Source: an uncultured Bacteroidales bacterium (GTDB lineage: Bacteria > Bacteroidota > Bacteroidia > Bacteroidales > FEN-979). From it: a stretch of 64,000 nucleotides of DNA. The translations under genes and the position numbers were made by a program. Below, piece after piece: positions 26,038 to 59,517 of the stretch; position 1 is the first letter of the stretch, and every line of letters begins with the position of its first letter. The stretch spans positions 24,963 to 88,962 of the forward strand of contig CAIQUS010000066.1 of assembly GCA_903875045.1 (NCBI GenBank). Reading direction: 5' to 3'. The notes beneath the pieces are model-generated. The model was not told where the DNA came from and made no database searches. It was given only the letters and a program-made list of their open reading frames with translations.

Positions 26038-26130
26038 CGTGACGCGTGACACGTGACGCGTGAACATACCATTACTCCTCTGTCACCCATCACCCATCAC
26101 CCGTCACCTGTCACCCGTCACGCGTCACCT
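26038..26130. repeat. Inverted heptamer arrays, (CGTGACG)n and (GTCACCC)n
   Basis: CGTGACG|CGTGACA|CGTGACG|CGTGAAC (26038-26065) and GTCACCC|ATCACCC|ATCACCC|GTCACCT|GTCACCC|GTCACGC|GTCACCT (26082-26130). Confidence 0.9.
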
Positions 26131-41147: not shown

Positions 41148-41195
41148 GCCATTCATGGCGTCTTTACCCTTTGAGACGCCATGAATGGCGTCTCT
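41148..41195. repeat. Nested palindromic element between phhA and flavin reductase
   Basis: GCCATTCATGGCGTCT-ttaccctttg-AGACGCCATGAATGGC (16-bp perfect IR); second arm is itself GAGACGCCAT-GA-ATGGCGTCTC. Confidence 0.75.
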
Positions 41196-41204
41196 GCCAC
41201 CGGA

Positions 41205-41837
41205 TTATTCCGGTTTGGCCAATTCGAAGAGGGCCTGGCCGGATGCACGCACATAGTACTCACCCCCCATTCGCCCTATCAGGTCGATTTTATCAGGGTC
41301 AATTCTGCCTTGCTCATCCATCACCACGGGATTGACATGGATCCGCAATATTTCACAGATCACAAGGTTTCCTGCTCCATTTCCAATACCTGTTTCAATA
41401 ACCTGAAGTACCTTGCATTCAAATTGAACCGGAGATTCTTTCACCCTGAAAGGCTTTACCAGGTCTGAAGGTTGCATCGTGAATCCAACCATGTCAAATT
41501 CATTGACCCCTTTGGGAAAATTGGCACTGGAATCGCTCATCATTTGCGCCATCTCATAGCTGACCGTATTGATAACCACCTCCGGAACTTCCTTCACATT
41601 GTCATACGTGTGCTTGGTCGTATTGTCCGTTCCCCGCCTGGATGGAGAAAAGATTAGGATTGGTGGATTCGCGCCGAATGCATTGAAAAAGCTGAAAGGG
41701 GAAAGATTTGGCCTTCCTTCCTTGTCGATGGTACTTGCAAAAGCAATCGGACGCGGAGCAATGGCTCCCAGCATCAGGTGATGAAATTTTGGGATCGGGG
41801 TATCGAGGGGGTCGAAGTGAAGATATGGGAGGGGCAT
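41205..41837 (-). CDS. Flavin reductase family protein (FMN-binding)
   Basis: YHLMLGAIAPRPIAFASTIDKEGRPNLSPFSFFNAFGANPPILIFSP. Confidence 0.93.
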   Translation of the reverse strand: MPLPYLHFDPLDTPIPKFHHLMLGAIAPRPIAFASTIDKEGRPNLSPFSFFNAFGANPPILIFSPSRRGTDNTTKHTYDNVKEVPEVVINTVSYEMAQMMSDSSANFPKGVNEFDMVGFTMQPSDLVKPFRVKESPVQFECKVLQVIETGIGNGAGNLVICEILRIHVNPVVMDEQGRIDPDKIDLIGRMGGEYYVRASGQALFELAKPE

Positions 41838-41844
41838 GGGGGAT

Positions 41845-41893
41845 GTACGATTTACGATTTACGATTTACAGGTGACAGGTGACGGGTGACGGG
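41845..41893. repeat. Seven-unit heptamer array in continuous register
   Basis: GTACGAT|TTACGAT|TTACGAT|TTACAGG|TGACAGG|TGACGGG|TGACGGG. Confidence 0.95.
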
Positions 41894-41895
41894 TT

Positions 41896-43176
41896 TCATG
41901 ATGTAGGGATTGCTGGGATTATTTTGGTGCTGACTTCACCGAATCCAATGCGGAGATCATTTTTTTTGCAATAACCCCGCATGATGATGGTATCGTTGTC
42001 GTTGATAAATTTCCGTTCAGTGCCATCCGGCATCTTTACCGGTTTGGTCCCTTTCCAGGCGATTTCAAGCATTGAGCCAAACGAATCAGGGGTTGGTCCG
42101 CTGATGGTTCCGGAACCATACATGTCACCCACATTGATGTTGCAACCATTCACTGTTTGGTGGGCCAGTTGTTGTGCAAGGTTCCAGTACATGTATTTAT
42201 AATTGGAATGGCAAACCAGATGCGGAAGTTGGTTTTCCGGCTGAATGAGGACATCGAGCTGAATATCGAAATTGTGGTTTCCTTCAAACTGCAGGTAAGG
42301 CAGTACTGCGGGCTCCTGTTTTGGTCCTGCCACACGGAAAGGCTCCAGGGCATCAAGTGTTACAATCCAGGGCGATATGACTGATCCGAAATTTTTGGCC
42401 AGGAAAGGGCCAAGCGGAACGTATTCCCATTTCTGGATATCCCGGGCCGACAAGTCGTTAAAAATCACCAGGCCGAAAATATGATCTTCGGCTTCACCAG
42501 TTGATACGGATTGTCCAAGGTTTGTATGTTTGCCGGTAATAAAGGCCATTTCAAGTTCGAAATCAACCTGTTTTGACGGGCCGAATTCAGGAAATTCAGC
42601 CTGGTCGGCCTTTGTTTGTCCTTTAGGCCGGTGAATATCTCTTCCCGAAACCACTATCGAAGAGCTCCGACCGTGATATCCAACCGGAATATGCTTCCAG
42701 TTTGGCAACAATGCATTGGCCGGATCCCGGAACATAATTCCCACATTGGTTGCATGTTCAATGCTTGAATAAAAGTCGGTATAATCACCAACATGCACCG
42801 GCATCAGCATCTGAACTCCTGCCAGGGGAAAGAGAATTTCATTCTGTTTATCCAGGCAATCGCGTAACTCCGGATTGTTTTCATCAAAAATCATGGTCAA
42901 ACGCTCCCTCATCTTCCGCCAGGCAGGTTTACCCAACGAAATAAACGGGTTCAGCGTTGTAGAATTGAACAATTCATGATCAAACCCCAATCCGTCCAGA
43001 AACCCGTGCATGGCAAAGGCATACAGGTCTACAACCATATCACCGATCCTTGTGGCTGCCCTCGCATTGCCGCCGGGTGTTTTAAAAATACCGAAAGGAA
43101 TATTCTGAATCGGGAAATCACTTCCCTCCTTCACCTCAATCCATGACTTTAAATCCGACCCCATCAATTTTACCAT
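41896..43176 (-). CDS. fahA: Fumarylacetoacetase
   Basis: DYTDFYSSIEHATNVG.MFR; LPNWKHIPVGYHGRSSSIVVSG; NDLSARDIQKWEYVPLGPFLAKNFG. Confidence 0.96.
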   Translation of the reverse strand: MVKLMGSDLKSWIEVKEGSDFPIQNIPFGIFKTPGGNARAATRIGDMVVDLYAFAMHGFLDGLGFDHELFNSTTLNPFISLGKPAWRKMRERLTMIFDENNPELRDCLDKQNEILFPLAGVQMLMPVHVGDYTDFYSSIEHATNVGIMFRDPANALLPNWKHIPVGYHGRSSSIVVSGRDIHRPKGQTKADQAEFPEFGPSKQVDFELEMAFITGKHTNLGQSVSTGEAEDHIFGLVIFNDLSARDIQKWEYVPLGPFLAKNFGSVISPWIVTLDALEPFRVAGPKQEPAVLPYLQFEGNHNFDIQLDVLIQPENQLPHLVCHSNYKYMYWNLAQQLAHQTVNGCNINVGDMYGSGTISGPTPDSFGSMLEIAWKGTKPVKMPDGTERKFINDNDTIIMRGYCKKNDLRIGFGEVSTKIIPAIPTS

Positions 43177-43189
43177 TAACTTATCAATT

Positions 43190-43231
43190 ATCCCAAATCG
43201 TAAATCGTAAATCGTAAATCGTAAATCGTAA
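43190..43231. repeat. Heptamer array ATCCCAA + (ATCGTAA)x5
   Basis: Direct reading; five perfect ATCGTAA units 43197-43231. Confidence 0.95.
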
Positions 43232-44334: not shown

Positions 44335-44343
44335 GCTTTTTAA

Positions 44344-44375
44344 TTTGAAAATTTGATGATTTGAAAATTTGAAAA
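44344..44375. repeat. Period-8 array (TTTGAAAA)x4 degenerate
   Basis: TTTGAAAA|TTTGATGA|TTTGAAAA|TTTGAAAA. Confidence 0.85.
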
Positions 44376-44408
44376 TATATTGAATCCTTTATTAACCGAA
44401 TTTTTCTG

Positions 44409-44453
44409 CATTGTTTTCATTGCTTACATTGTCTGCATTGCCTGGATTCCCTC
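44409..44453. repeat. Period-9 array (CATTGnnnn)
   Basis: CATTGTTTT|CATTGCTTA|CATTGTCTG|CATTGCCTG|GATTCCCTC; abuts hmgA stop. Confidence 0.75.
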
Positions 44454-45609: not shown

Positions 45610-45612
45610 AAT

Positions 45613-46269: not shown

Positions 46270-46275
46270 GATTAT

Positions 46276-46345
46276 TTACGATTTGCGATTTACGATTTGG
46301 GATTTGGAACTTGGAACTTGGAATTTGGAACTTGGAATTTGGAGC
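46276..46345. repeat. Ten-unit heptamer array drifting TTACGAT to TTGGAAC
   Basis: TTACGAT|TTGCGAT|TTACGAT|TTGGGAT|TTGGAAC|TTGGAAC|TTGGAAT|TTGGAAC|TTGGAAT|TTGGAGC. Confidence 0.95.
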
Positions 46346-48287: not shown

Positions 48288-48470
48288 TATCAATTTTTTA
48301 AATCATAAACCAAAAACAAAGAAAAGTTCTCATTTGATTTTATGGCGTGTTCCGCTCATACCGGAACATGTATTTAAAGCCAAAGGCTGATTCGGAATCT
48401 CAAGATTGCCGGATGATTTAAATCGCAAAAGCGACACCGCCCCACACACGGGGCGGTTTTTTTTTATTGC
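48288..48470 (+). ncRNA. Candidate intergenic small RNA ending in a strong terminator
   Basis: Promoter motif upstream, no ORF beyond 11 codons, hairpin TGTTCCG-ctcata-CCGGAACA, terminal hairpin and T-run. Confidence 0.35.
48436..48470 (+). terminator. Rho-independent terminator
   Basis: CCGCCCC-ACACA-CGGGGCGG followed by a long T-run. Confidence 0.9.
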
Positions 48471-51400
48471 CGGATCAGAAAGCCTCCCCGGTCGCCTCCT
48501 ACGGGGCCTAGCTCAATGATATAGTCTGCCCGGGCAATGATCATTGGATCGTGTTCGATGATGAGCAAAGTATTCCCCTGGTCAGCCAATTGCTGAAACA
48601 AGGCCAGCAGGCACTCAACATCACGGAAATGAAGCCCGGTTGATGGTTCTTCAAACAAATACAGCGTTGGCCCCTTTGCAGGCTTCATCAGTTCGGCAGC
48701 CAGGGTGAGGCGCTGCGATTCACCCCCCGAAAGGCTGTCAAGGGATTGACCCAATTTCAGATACCCCATTCCCACCTTTTCCAGGATTTGTAATTGCTCT
48801 GAAAGGTTTTTCTGGTCATTGAAAAACAGACCTGCTTCAGAAACAGACATTTCCAGGATGTCTGAAATATTCTGACCTTTATACAGGCATGAGAGAATCT
48901 CCTTCCGATACCGCTTCCCTGTACATTCTTCACATTCCATGGTAACATCTGACAGAAAATCCATTGAAATACGAATTTTTCCGGTTCCTTCGCAAACAGG
49001 GCATCTGCCCTCTTTATTGAGATATGAAAAAGAATTTTTAACCAAACCAGCAACTTTCGAGTCGGGTACTAATGCAAACAAATCGCGGATCCTGTCGAAA
49101 ATTCCGGTGAAAGTGGCGGGTGTGGCCAGCGGGGAGGTAAATCCGGTGCGCTGATGAACGCACACTATCCGTTGAAAATTTTCAAAGCCCTCAATGGAAG
49201 AACAACCCGTTGCCTTTTTGTTTTCACCGGAGGCAAGGATGACCTCGAACAGCAGCGTGGATTTGCCGCTTCCGGAAACACCCGTGACAGCGATGATTCC
49301 GGCTGATGGGATTTCAAGATCGAACCCCTTCAGATTATTTGCAAATGCATTTCGGATGGTCAAACCCGGATTTAACCTGCGACGATGGTTCACAGGCAAA
49401 CCATCCAGGAGGGAAACACCCGGTTTAAAACCGTTAAACTCGTTTGAAAGATAAGGGCCGGTAACCGAATCCGGGTTTTTCATGATCTCTTCCGGTGTTC
49501 CGGTTGCCAGAACCAATCCGCCATTTTTCCCGGCTCCCGGCCCCATGTCAATGATATAATCCGAAGCGAGGATCACATCCCGGTCATGCTCAACAATAAT
49601 CACCGTATTCCCTGTTTCCTGCAAAGAACGGATCAACCGCATCAGATTACCGGTATCCCTGGGATGAAGACCAATGGTAGGTTCATCAAGCACATAGGTG
49701 AGACCTGTCAGCCCGGAGCCAAGCTGCCCTGCCAGCCTGATGCGTTGTGCCTCACCTCCCGATAAGGTCGATGAAAGGCGGTCAATCGTAAGGTATGACA
49801 AGCCAAGCCCGGATAAAAAGTTGAGTTTTCGCAGGATTTCGTGGATGAGCGGGGCTGCAACTTCCATCTCGCTGTGACCTGATTGCGGTGTTAAAAGGGA
49901 CCTGAAAAATTCAACCGATTGCAGGACCGGCAAGGAGGAGACTTCAGCAATGTTCTTTCCATGGATCAAAAATGCCAATGCCTCCTTCCGCAATCGTGTG
50001 CCCTGACATTCAGGACAGGAGGTTGTCTTCATGAGTGCCATCATGGTTTCGCCACGATGGTCGGCATGTTTTCGGTGATACTCTTCGTTCACCAGATTTA
50101 ACAATCCTTTCCAGGGTCCGGTAAAATGATGTTCACCGGTGCGGCTATCCCGAATGAATTGCCAGTTGACCTGGAATTGTTCCTCCGCCGTCCCCTCCAG
50201 GGCCATCCATCTCGCTTCAGGAGTAACCTCATTCCAGGGTTGCGTGAAATCAACACCGTATTTTTCTGCTACGGCCTTCAGTGTAGCCACATATTGCCCA
50301 TAGGGATCTCCGTAAAATTTTCCGGTTTTGGTTCCATCCAAAGCCCCGGCCAACAATGATTTCGATGGATCGGTAATCAGTTTTTCCGGATCACATACCG
50401 TTTGATATCCCAATCCGTCACAGGCCGGGCAGGCTCCATGCTGATGGTTAAATGAGAAAAGACTGGAAGAGGGATTTCGGATTTCGGATTTCAGATTTCG
50501 GATTTCAGTTTGCACTGAGCCGATACGGGAAAAGAGCAGGCGATAATGGTCATATATTCCTGTGACGGTTCCAACGGTTGACCGGGGATTACGGCCGATA
50601 CGGTTCTGGTCGACAGCAAATGTGGGTGTAAGTCCGGAAATTTCCTCAAAATCAGGTTTCGCTTTTACCCCGATCCGGGCTCGGATATATGGAGAGAAAC
50701 TTTCCAGAAACCGGTTCTGCCCCTCGGCAAAAACAGTATCAAATGCCAGGGATGATTTTCCGCTGCCCGAAACCCCTGTGATAACGGTGATCAGGTTATG
50801 CGGAATTTCCACATCAATGTACCGGAGATTATGAGTTGAGACACTTGTGAGTTTTATGGATTTACGATTTAAGATTGTTGATTTACGATTTTCGGGTAAA
50901 TAAGGCTCGGGTAATATCTTTGAAACAGCCTTCCCTGCTTCGCACGAATCTCTCGTAAATCGTAAATCCCCAATCGTAAATAAATATTCTCTCAGGGCTT
51001 TCTCCGTAACCGAACCTTCACATCCGACAAGTTCCTCCGGTGAGCCTTCGAAAAGTAACAGACCTCCCTGCCGGCCACTCCCGGGGCCAAGATCAACAAT
51101 GTGGTCAGCAGCTTCTATAATTCCGGGATGGTGTTCTATAAGGATAATAGTATGTCCTTGTCCGATCAGCCGGTCGAGTGCGTGTAGCAAAATGGCTGTA
51201 TCGGCATGGTGCAAGCCTGTGGTAGGCTCATCCATAATATAGAGGGTATGCTCCGATTGTGGTTTGGCCAGTTCAGTGGCCAGTTTGATACGCTGTGCTT
51301 CACCACCGCTCAGGGTGGAAGATCGCTGCCCGAGCGTAAGATAGCCAAGCCCCAGACCATCCATGGTTTCGAGATATCGCAAAATCTTTGGCACACCTGA

Positions 51401-53434
51401 AAAGAATGCAACCGCTTCTGAAACGGTCATCTCCAGAACGTCGGATATTGTTCTCCCAAGAAAGTTTATTTCAAGTGTTTTATCATCAAAACGACGGCCT
51501 TCACACGCTTCACACAAAACCTCAACATTTCCCATGAAGTGCATCCCGATCTGCTGATACCCCGCACCTTCGCAGGATTCGCACCGGCCACCGGATGTAT
51601 TGAATGAAAACCGGCTTTTATCATAGCCACGATTCACCGACTCCTGTTGTTTGGCAAACAAATCACGGATATGGTCAAACAAGCCTGTATAGGTGGCAGG
51701 ATTACTGCGGGGTGTTCGTCCGATAGGCTGCTGGTCGATCACAATCAGTTTTTCAATTCCTTCCCACCCTGTGATATTTCTGAACCTTCCAGCATTTTCG
51801 CCGGCATGGTACAACATATTTTTTAAAAACCGTCCCAGGATGTGGTTTGTCAAAGTGGATTTTCCCGCACCGGACACACCTGTTACTACATTCAGAGCCT
51901 CAAGTTTGAATTTTACATCTATTTCCCTGAGGTTGTTGGCCGCCGCCCCTTGAATGGTGATAAATCCGTTACCGGGTCTTCTCCGGGCAGGAATGGCAAT
52001 CTGCTCCAAACCGAAGAAAAATGAAAGTGTACGGCTCTTGCGGATTTCCATTTCAGATAATGCCATGGCCTCCTTCAGCGTCCCGCTGAACAAAACATTT
52101 CCGCCGTGAACGCCTGGTCCCGGACCAATGTCAATCAGCCAGTCGGCATGTTGAATGAATTCCAGTTCATGTTCCACAACGATCACCGTGTTGCCTTTGT
52201 CACGAATTTCTTTCAGGATGTCAATGAGTTGCCCCACATCATGCGAATGGAGCCCGATGGAGGGTTCATCGAAAATGCAGATCATACCGCTTAGCCCGAT
52301 TCCGGCAAGTGTTGCCAGCCGCAACCGCTGAGATTCTCCTCCGGAGAGAGTGGTTGATTCACGATCGGCAGAAAGATATGACAAACCCAGGCGTTGCAAA
52401 AGATCGGCCTGCTTCGATATTTGTGTGATAATTGGCCCTGCAATCAGCTTTTCCATTTTTGAAAAGGTGAATTTCTGCAAGGCCTTCACAAGATCATCTG
52501 TTTGCAGTGAAGCCAGGTCAGCAATGTTGCACCCCTGGATTTTTACTGACAGCGCTTTATCGTTCAACCGCCTCCCTCCACAAGCCTTACAGTTGACGCT
52601 GCGGACAAACCTCAGGATGTTTTTATTCCGGTCACGTTGCAAGATGGTCTCCATCACTGGCAGGATACCTTTGTAATAGCCCAATTCGCGTGGCTTTGCG
52701 GTAATCCCGCTCCATTTCATACGCGATTCCAGTGGATGCTTGCCAAAAGGGATTTCTATTTTATCGCTGCCATAAAGAATGATGCGTTTTTGTTCAGGGG
52801 TCAGATCTTTCCACGGAATGTCGATGTGAAACCCTTCCGACCGGCACACCTGGTCGAGCACATCGAGGGTAACCTGGGAATAGATGATATAGCCGTTGGG
52901 TGCGGTGATCACAAGGGCTCCCTGGCGCAGCGTCCTGTTTTGATCAGCGACCAGCAACTCCGGATCAAGGAAGTCTTCCACGCCCAAGCCCTTGCAGGCA
53001 GGGCAGGCACCTTCAGGGGAGTTAAACGAAAAAAGGGTCCGGTTGATGGGAAAAGGTTCATTTTCCCCTGACGGAGAACCCACCCTGGCAAACAGGAGGC
53101 GCAGTGCATCGTAAATTCCGGTGATGGTTCCAACAGTCGACCGAGGATTGGATACCACCGATTTCTGATCAAGGGCAATGGCCGGTGAAAGTCTGTCGAT
53201 TCGCTCAACATCCGGCTTTTTCAGCTTGCCCATGAACTGCCTGGCAAACGATGAGAAAGAACCCAGGTACCGGCTTTCGGCTTCCCGGTAAAGCACATCG
53301 AAAACCAGCGAGGATTTTCCGGAACCGGAAACACCGGTAACCACGATCAGTTTGTTTTTTGGAAATTCGAGGCTGACCGAACGGAGGTTGTGTTCTCTCG
53401 CCCTGATAACAGAAATTTTACAAGTCTGATCCAT
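48464..53434 (-). CDS. uvrA: Tandem-fused UvrA-like excinuclease subunit (two UvrA units, four ABC NBDs)
   Basis: GVSGSGKSSL at start of both halves; GVSGAGKST and GVSGSGKST second NBDs; four LSGGE(S/A)QR signatures; CPAC.GLG and C..C.G zinc motifs in both halves. Confidence 0.92.
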   Translation of the reverse strand: MDQTCKISVIRAREHNLRSVSLEFPKNKLIVVTGVSGSGKSSLVFDVLYREAESRYLGSFSSFARQFMGKLKKPDVERIDRLSPAIALDQKSVVSNPRSTVGTITGIYDALRLLFARVGSPSGENEPFPINRTLFSFNSPEGACPACKGLGVEDFLDPELLVADQNRTLRQGALVITAPNGYIIYSQVTLDVLDQVCRSEGFHIDIPWKDLTPEQKRIILYGSDKIEIPFGKHPLESRMKWSGITAKPRELGYYKGILPVMETILQRDRNKNILRFVRSVNCKACGGRRLNDKALSVKIQGCNIADLASLQTDDLVKALQKFTFSKMEKLIAGPIITQISKQADLLQRLGLSYLSADRESTTLSGGESQRLRLATLAGIGLSGMICIFDEPSIGLHSHDVGQLIDILKEIRDKGNTVIVVEHELEFIQHADWLIDIGPGPGVHGGNVLFSGTLKEAMALSEMEIRKSRTLSFFFGLEQIAIPARRRPGNGFITIQGAAANNLREIDVKFKLEALNVVTGVSGAGKSTLTNHILGRFLKNMLYHAGENAGRFRNITGWEGIEKLIVIDQQPIGRTPRSNPATYTGLFDHIRDLFAKQQESVNRGYDKSRFSFNTSGGRCESCEGAGYQQIGMHFMGNVEVLCEACEGRRFDDKTLEINFLGRTISDVLEMTVSEAVAFFSGVPKILRYLETMDGLGLGYLTLGQRSSTLSGGEAQRIKLATELAKPQSEHTLYIMDEPTTGLHHADTAILLHALDRLIGQGHTIILIEHHPGIIEAADHIVDLGPGSGRQGGLLLFEGSPEELVGCEGSVTEKALREYLFTIGDLRFTRDSCEAGKAVSKILPEPYLPENRKSTILNRKSIKLTSVSTHNLRYIDVEIPHNLITVITGVSGSGKSSLAFDTVFAEGQNRFLESFSPYIRARIGVKAKPDFEEISGLTPTFAVDQNRIGRNPRSTVGTVTGIYDHYRLLFSRIGSVQTEIRNLKSEIRNPSSSLFSFNHQHGACPACDGLGYQTVCDPEKLITDPSKSLLAGALDGTKTGKFYGDPYGQYVATLKAVAEKYGVDFTQPWNEVTPEARWMALEGTAEEQFQVNWQFIRDSRTGEHHFTGPWKGLLNLVNEEYHRKHADHRGETMMALMKTTSCPECQGTRLRKEALAFLIHGKNIAEVSSLPVLQSVEFFRSLLTPQSGHSEMEVAAPLIHEILRKLNFLSGLGLSYLTIDRLSSTLSGGEAQRIRLAGQLGSGLTGLTYVLDEPTIGLHPRDTGNLMRLIRSLQETGNTVIIVEHDRDVILASDYIIDMGPGAGKNGGLVLATGTPEEIMKNPDSVTGPYLSNEFNGFKPGVSLLDGLPVNHRRRLNPGLTIRNAFANNLKGFDLEIPSAGIIAVTGVSGSGKSTLLFEVILASGENKKATGCSSIEGFENFQRIVCVHQRTGFTSPLATPATFTGIFDRIRDLFALVPDSKVAGLVKNSFSYLNKEGRCPVCEGTGKIRISMDFLSDVTMECEECTGKRYRKEILSCLYKGQNISDILEMSVSEAGLFFNDQKNLSEQLQILEKVGMGYLKLGQSLDSLSGGESQRLTLAAELMKPAKGPTLYLFEEPSTGLHFRDVECLLALFQQLADQGNTLLIIEHDPMIIARADYIIELGPVGGDRGGFLIRQ
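50471..50505. repeat. In-CDS heptamer array (CGGATTT)n within uvrA second half
   Basis: GGGATTT|CGGATTT|CGGATTT|CAGATTT|CGGATTT, encoding TEIRNLKSEIRNPS. Confidence 0.9.
50856..50983. repeat. Inverted heptamer element inside uvrA, forming the linker between the two UvrA units
   Basis: ATGGATT|TACGATT|TAAGATT|GTTGATT|TACGATT (50856-50890) and CTCGTAA|ATCGTAA|ATCCCCA|ATCGTAA (50952-50979). Confidence 0.9.
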
Positions 53435-59251: not shown

Positions 59252-59476
59252 TTTACGAAATGGGATTTACGATTTACGATTTTATAAGAAATTAACTGAT
59301 TACGATAATTATTAAAAAAATTACGATTTGGGATTTACGGTTTACTATTTCGGAAGCAATGAACCGAACCTGATAATCAAAAATAGAGATTCTTTGCGGT
59401 AGAACAATAATCAGCATTTCAATCGTAAATCGTAAATCGTAAATCCCAAATCTTAAATCCCAAATCGTAAATCGTA
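59251..59476. repeat. Large inverted heptamer element
   Basis: ATTTACG|AAATGGG|ATTTACG|ATTTACG (59251-59278); AATTACG|ATTTGGG|ATTTACG|GTTTACT|ATTTCGG (59319-59353); (AATCGTA)3-AATCCCA-AATCTTA-AATCCCA-(AATCGTA)2 (59421-59476). Confidence 0.95.
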
Positions 59477-59517
59477 AATAATAATATCTTTGCACCACCT
59501 TTAATAACCATTCACAG

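Follow-up and report, generated by a model that had tools for sequence, protein, structure and literature searches.

The stretch of DNA analysed here (the window, 64,000 nucleotides in all) contains a tyrosine-catabolism cluster in which a flavin-reductase-domain gene (41205-41837, minus strand; Pfam PF01613, E 6e-19) and the gene for fumarylacetoacetase (41896-43176, minus strand; Pfam PF01557 and PF09298) are separated by a spacer of 58 bp. This spacer is filled by a tract of heptamers. Read directly, positions 41845-41893 are GTACGAT TTACGAT TTACGAT TTACAGG TGACAGG TGACGGG TGACGGG, a real tandem series lying exactly where a preliminary description of the sequence had placed it and passing, as had been claimed, from the TTACGAT type to the TGACGGG type without a break of phase. 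The first three units (41845-41865) represent TTACGAT, the commonest heptamer of the genome, and the last three (41873-41893) represent GTGACNN, its second common heptamer family; the junction unit TTACAGG (41866-41872) is a chimera of TTACGAT and TGACAGG that keeps the register. When degenerate units are counted (GGGGCAT GGGGGAT, 41831-41844, which overlap the flavin reductase start codon), the period-7 tract extends over 41831-41894, the flavin reductase gene abutting the array with its start codon at one end and fumarylacetoacetase with its stop codon at the other.

The period-7 score of the array was 32. When its spacer was shuffled 5000 times by dinucleotides and scored at periods 5-12, the highest value was 13, short of the array in every case; 60 shuffles of the whole window gave at most 11 at period 7. 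The neighbouring spacer (41157-41204) holds a palindromic element, GAGACGCC-ATGAATGG-CGTCTC, which in relatives takes the forms GAGACGCAC..GTGCGTCTC or GAGCCGCAC..GTGCGGCT, with matched changes in the stem; it appears to be a dyad of the REP type, distinct from the heptamers.

Other arrays occur within the window. Five AAATCGT units lie at 43195-43231 (12 of 20 genomes have an array in the orthologous spacer, the heptamers being different), and a period-7 mosaic at 46274-46343 passes from ATTTACG to ATTTGGA/ACTTGGA. Several arrays are the arms of pairs. A degenerate TTACGAT array (741-780, left arm) stands head-to-head with an AAATCGT/AATTCGT array (832-870, right arm); a CGTGACG array immediately 3' of a stop codon (26038-26063, left arm) is paired with a TCACCCG array (26083-26128, right arm); and, in a convergent spacer, a GATTTAC array (59264-59282, left arm) is paired with an AATCGTA array that includes AATCCCA variants (59421-59479, right arm). 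In the spacer between hppd and hgmA (44335-44451) the arms differ in period, the left being a period-8 array of AATTTGAA (44342-44376) and the right a period-9 array of CATTGTTTT/CATTGCCTG (44409-44452); several congeners have kept an 8-mer and a 9-mer array at the same two sites. Lastly, a heptamer array at 50472-50514 lies inside a UvrA-like ORF (48464-53434, minus strand), where it codes for a species-specific linker.

The genome (an assembly of 5.96 Mb in 253 contigs) was sampled as 20-kb stretches totalling 1.02 Mb and containing 506 spacers. These spacers held 76 period-7, 59 period-8 and 10 period-9 arrays, densities that are inflated because about 0.4 Mb of the sample was chosen around matches to TTACGAT; the same spacers after shuffling held 0, 1 and 0, so that the claim of a period-7 signal, which was to be abandoned if spacers showed no more of it than shuffled sequence, survived in the sampled spacers. 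In a 242-kb part, made up of the window itself and pieces not chosen by hits, 7 was the commonest period, with 16 intergenic arrays versus 0-5 at other periods (the multiples 14 and 21 excepted); a further 5 period-7 arrays were in coding sequence, about 16% of this sample being intergenic. Period 7 is thus the commonest period but not a unique one: 8-mers were nearly as frequent, 9-mers also occurred, and the phenomenon is not specific to period 7.

Three tandem copies of TTACGAT (with at most one mismatch) had 226 matches in the genome and four copies of GTGACNN had 153, with none for the reversed control of the former or the control of the latter. Among the same-family relatives searched, 34 of the 36, or nearly so, had the triple TTACGAT repeat, and all 24 genomes representing the order's other families lacked it; within the genus its count ranged from 0 to 436. 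At loci around the same gene, period-7 arrays numbered about 0.8 per 100 kb in other Bacteroidota and about 23 in near relatives. The array in the window is a member of a family-wide set of intergenic arrays. A few genomes belonging to the phylum's other families were rich in GTGACNN heptamers, and stretches from other Bacteroidota families (L209-L226) showed 7-mer and 9-mer arrays, e.g., ATGGACTTG ... GTCCATTCC, that likewise stand head-to-head. The genomes of the family examined are all draft or metagenome assemblies, which would leave some room for an artefact of assembly, or for chance; with no shuffle in 5000 matching the array, reversed-pattern controls at zero, and the pattern repeated in many independent assemblies, named public records among them, we regard this explanation as practically negligible.

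Within period-7 arrays, adjacent units differed by a mean of 1.08 mismatches, compared with 1.51 when their order was shuffled, which bears out the expectation that adjacent units would be more similar than distant ones. At each of the periods 7, 8 and 9, mean mismatches were higher the farther apart the units lay, and neighbours differed less than they did in shuffled order. Where two homogeneous blocks with differing units adjoined, 48 of 60 were in register (11.3 expected), as were 20 of the 29 whose units differed at three or more positions (7.1 expected). The other 12 of the 60 were out of register; drift that keeps the register is frequent but has exceptions. Mosaics, i.e., arrays whose ends differed by at least 40%, accounted for 27 of the 187 arrays that had five or more units. 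In their own genome, the tandem types that compose mosaics were found at a mean of 14.2 other loci, versus 0.47 for single-substitution mutants. The array in the window looks like a junction between two heptamer families common in the genome, because tandem pairs of TTACGAT recur at 47 other loci in the 1.02-Mb sample and those of TGACGGG at 8, whereas a tandem pair of the junction unit TTACAGG recurs at one.

Units were also shared between unlinked loci. In a set of arrays not chosen by repeat hits, 5-mer sharing at period 7 was 0.250 among unlinked loci of one genome versus 0.129 between genomes, and at period 8 it was 0.198 versus 0.127 (permutation p 0.002 for each); in control spacers lacking arrays the values were 0.094 and 0.088. 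The preferred units vary by species.

These results bear on the simplest account, in which each array would arise from its own spacer by local slippage and point mutation and drift independently, with the addition of whole units keeping the register and the period of 7-9 reflecting polymerase geometry. Loops of that size would escape mismatch repair. MutS homologues are present, which makes an effect of loop size plausible, and loss of mismatch repair was not supported as a cause. The gradient in similarity between neighbours and the family-specific abundance also fit local slippage, and polymerase geometry was proposed as the source of repeat period by Mrazek, as cited in PMC4679880 and PMC4692102. 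However, dozens of unlinked loci carry an identical heptamer, each genome has its own repertoire of units, and the mosaic in the window unites two common families rather than a common and a novel unit. Local slippage alone would not predict the sharing of units within a genome, and we consider it rather unlikely as the whole explanation.

Orthologous sites were compared in 20 genomes of the family around the same gene cluster. Arrays were present in the spacer between flavin reductase and fumarylacetoacetase in 11 of the 20, and in the spacer next to it in 12 of the 20; some other spacers of the cluster had no array in any of the 20 genomes, and its conserved promoter and terminator spacers had none. 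The period agreed in 72% of orthologous comparisons versus 43% of those between different spacers (permutation p 0.002). Among orthologous arrays of equal period and orientation, 28% had no 5-mer in common, although unit sequence was also inherited above chance (5-mer sharing of 0.305 versus 0.160). Repeat length and position are inherited better than repeat sequence in this family of Bacteroidota. It had been suggested that repeats with seemingly different units form one family defined by period rather than sequence. The first part is supported, in that arrays with different units behave as one set: this is seen in the register (48 of 60), in the likeness of neighbours, in the agreement in period at orthologous sites and in the linker of the UvrA-like gene described below. 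However, "period rather than sequence" is too strong, given that unit sequence is also inherited and is shared genome-wide, and that arrays of periods 8 and 9 behave alike.

The UvrA-like ORF offers the cleanest example of a unit replaced with the period kept, because there the flanks align. The ORF is of ~1657 aa, exceeding the length of an ordinary UvrA, and has a match to the NCBIfam uvra model. In 7 of 8 species, the linker between its conserved flanks was encoded by heptamer arrays, the units of which were mostly different (GAATATC plus AAATCGT, GGCAGTT, CGTCACG, AATATCG, AAATCCG and others). As a separate observation, the repeat-coded linker of this ORF was different in every relative. 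Two further sites in the cluster can be mentioned. At 45610-45612 the spacer is of three bases in the window, a naturally empty or nearly empty site, and most of the relatives examined have 8-mer (AAATGGTG) or 7-mer arrays there. The spacer between fah and hppd held a long 8-mer array, ACTTTGTG (L149:9233-9400), in one of two relatives and a degenerate CGCAAAG dyad (L165) in the other.

Persistence at a given locus, such as that of the 8-mer and 9-mer arms between hppd and hgmA, is what would be expected if the arrays were sequence-specific regulatory sites, and post-transcriptional binding sites have been proposed for the TAACTGA repeats (PMC4679880). The replacement of units at orthologous loci, the highly variable copy number, and the occurrence of arrays within a coding linker all argue against such sites, and we judge them highly improbable here.

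The arrays have a marked polarity at gene edges. Orientation was assigned by a strand score (GA/GG versus TC/CC) taken from an unbiased dinucleotide scan of this genome, and gene ends were called by a simple script. In nine genome sets, arrays near stops had X outward in 122 cases versus 22, and those near starts had x on the sense strand in 83 versus 21. The polarity was confirmed in relatives around the gene cluster, independently of the dinucleotide scan, and in genomes of five other families (in stretches chosen around hits). It depended on distance, being 99:6 within 5 nt of stops and 9:13 beyond 20 nt, and 44:5 within 10 nt of starts and 17:10 beyond 30 nt. Ordinary spacer composition was rejected as its cause: spacers lacking arrays had the opposite bias at stops (X 119 versus x 168). 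In all, 111 arrays were near starts and 163 near stops. Divergent, promoter-bearing spacers were depleted in arrays; this, like the lack of arrays in the conserved promoter and terminator spacers of the cluster, is what tolerated DNA would be expected to show.

The translation signals themselves followed the same pattern. Within 10 nt of starts there were 0.11 start triplets per unit on the sense strand versus 0.99 on the antisense strand; beyond 30 nt the values were 0.48 and 0.50. Of the arrays touching a stop codon, 65% had stop triplets in half of their units on the sense strand, versus 15% on the antisense strand. Stop triplets alone are insufficient as a cause, because stop-adjacent arrays without sense stop triplets were still polarised (37 versus 2 within 5 nt); in these the polarity may derive from the GA/AG of the stop codon itself, included in the array. 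The simplest reading of the polarity is a translation-signal filter combined with seeding from the stop codon, although these do not fully account for the 37:2 residue. Part of the edge effect may be ascertainment, since the called end of a gene shifts when an array contains a start or stop in frame.

Where a spacer held two arrays and both orientations could be called, the pair was head-to-head in 20 of 20 cases. The idea that this order reflects fused, telomere-like ends was rejected, since single arrays are equally polarised and the degree of polarity depends on how far an array lies from the gene edge. Head-to-head arms would also be expected if the arrays were hairpin elements forming stem-loops or bidirectional terminators, and the two arms did share 6-mers above chance (0.19 versus 0.08, p 5e-4). 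However, the arms were clearly complementary in only 15 of 46 pairs, the period itself differed between them in 22 of 46, and many arrays are single; the complementary arms and U tract of an intrinsic terminator were found in few cases, T6/A6 tracts being present in 3 of 31 convergent spacers with arrays. With arms so often unlike in both unit and period, origin by hairpin or foldback was rejected as the general case, and we consider the hairpin explanation very unlikely.

Another possibility is that the arrays act as transcription insulators, i.e., that RNA entering a gene from either side runs through a C-rich, G-poor, rut-like array with regularly spaced YC dimers, allowing Rho to end read-through and antisense transcription. 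Near gene edges the inbound strand does have this character: YC occurred in 74-76% of its units near genes versus 22-23% on the other strand, and its median C/G ratio there was 1.8-2.8. The head-to-head pairs, the presence of Rho, and the figure of ~80% antisense to genes given for subtilis in PMC12350095 also fit. So does the scarcity of T6/A6 tracts in convergent spacers with arrays compared with those lacking them (29 of 64, p 4.7e-4; L009-L207), which could hint at a role of the arrays in termination. On the other side, the polarity is gone more than 20 nt from stops and weaker more than 30 nt from starts, a decay that fits translation signals bound to the edge rather than terminators; arrays lie between the genes for two CoA-transferase subunits in 9 of 13 genomes, a poor site for a terminator; the published rut descriptor has a YC spacing of 9-13 nt rather than 7-9; and many close relatives have few arrays. 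Because arrays sit between enzyme-subunit genes and the polarity fades with distance, we rate insulation by Rho as unlikely.

Heptamer repeats are already known as a kind of DNA. They occur in many bacteria, and slippage with a preference for 7 nt has been proposed for them (cited in PMC4679880 and PMC4692102). The heptanucleotide LSSRs and cyanobacterial STRRs (Mrazek 2007 and the heptanucleotides of Calothrix), as presented in the same two citing papers, resemble the present arrays in being intergenic tandem heptamers with period 7 as the commonest class, a lineage-specific abundance and slippage as the proposed origin. The present arrays likewise have tandem units of 5-11 nt, longer than chance, and are mainly intergenic (16 versus 5 coding). 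In those citing papers, however, each repeat is described by a fixed unit, whereas here units change in register within arrays (27 mosaics among 187) and at orthologous sites; the parallel 8-mer and 9-mer sets also set the present arrays apart. The GGGAATC and GGGGA(C/T)T arrays of Xanthomonas and Nostoc (PMC4692102) are mostly intergenic, with heterogeneous units and a fixed period; the GGGAATC arrays have variable positions and form 70-75 convergent pairs per Xanthomonas genome, and, for the Xanthomonas and Nostoc arrays, the ORF lying 5' of the G-rich strand is the closer one (mean 28 versus 160 nt). Their outward polarity and convergent pairing, with the G-rich strand directed away from the nearest gene, are like those seen here. 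They form a single G-rich, quadruplex-capable family, whereas here G tracts are missing from the commonest unit, TTACGAT, and some arrays have a period of 8 or 9. The TAACTGA repeats of Beggiatoaceae, Cyanobacteria and a few Bacteroidetes (PMC4679880) are also intergenic heptamers, mostly forward upstream of starts, with one Bacteroidetes set reported as reverse after stops. They have one favoured unit whose single-base variants are seldom tandem, whereas here variants are the rule, and TAACTGA was absent from the 40 commonest period-7 units. The statement that no named element has the property in question was thus partly right: related repeats exist in these three groups, and text searches of the open-access literature found no earlier description of these units or of heptamer arrays in Bacteroidota. 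The new features are that units are replaced at an unchanged period and position, that 8-mer and 9-mer sets exist in parallel, that units are shared within genomes, and that the polarity is linked to translation signals.

We propose that the array in the window belongs to a dispersed, satellite-like set, with periods of 7, 8 and 9, in the non-coding DNA of this family. By slippage, arrays would gain and lose whole units, such that mutated units spread locally and neighbours remain alike. Arrays of the same period would also overwrite each other in phase, with bases common to both (e.g., the T.AC core of TTACGAT and TGACGGG) seeding either template switching or ectopic gene conversion; this copying step we infer from patterns in sampled stretches of draft assemblies. 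The series TTACGAT, TTACAGG, TGACAGG, TGACGGG would be the product of whole-unit slippage together with in-phase copying, and the register would survive replacement of the unit because both processes act in whole units. Selection would then filter the arrays that touch genes, leaving no sense-strand start triplets just upstream of a start codon, and a stop, or sequence derived from one, where a stop codon is touched; the arrays would be mostly tolerated rather than functional. We consider this combination of slippage, copying from array to array and filtering at gene edges the best explanation, and hold it with about even confidence.

Eukaryotic satellite DNA is known for species-specific amplification and concerted evolution. 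The resemblance, and it is a resemblance only, is that units are shared more within a genome than between species and are replaced at homologous sites; unlike satellites, the present arrays are short, bacterial and located in gene spacers, and the copying mechanism is putative. We would advance more tentatively, as less probable than not, a fuller version of the analogy, in which period and position are inherited at hundreds of spacers while the unit is overwritten in phase from a library of arrays in the same genome. If this library reading were true, the period itself would be a heritable character, and its maintenance would call for copying in trans, a process that is not known to have been described for short repeats in bacteria.

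Short tandem repeats in bacteria have been catalogued by their unit. Because units here turn over while period and position persist, unit-based surveys would split one phenomenon into many and miss it from one species to the next. That unlinked loci share units calls for a mechanism of copying, and the edge-dependent polarity provides a testable reason for the fixed orientation of published heptamer families around genes. The orthologous spacers and the linker of the UvrA-like protein are ready sites at which slippage and copying can be weighed against each other.
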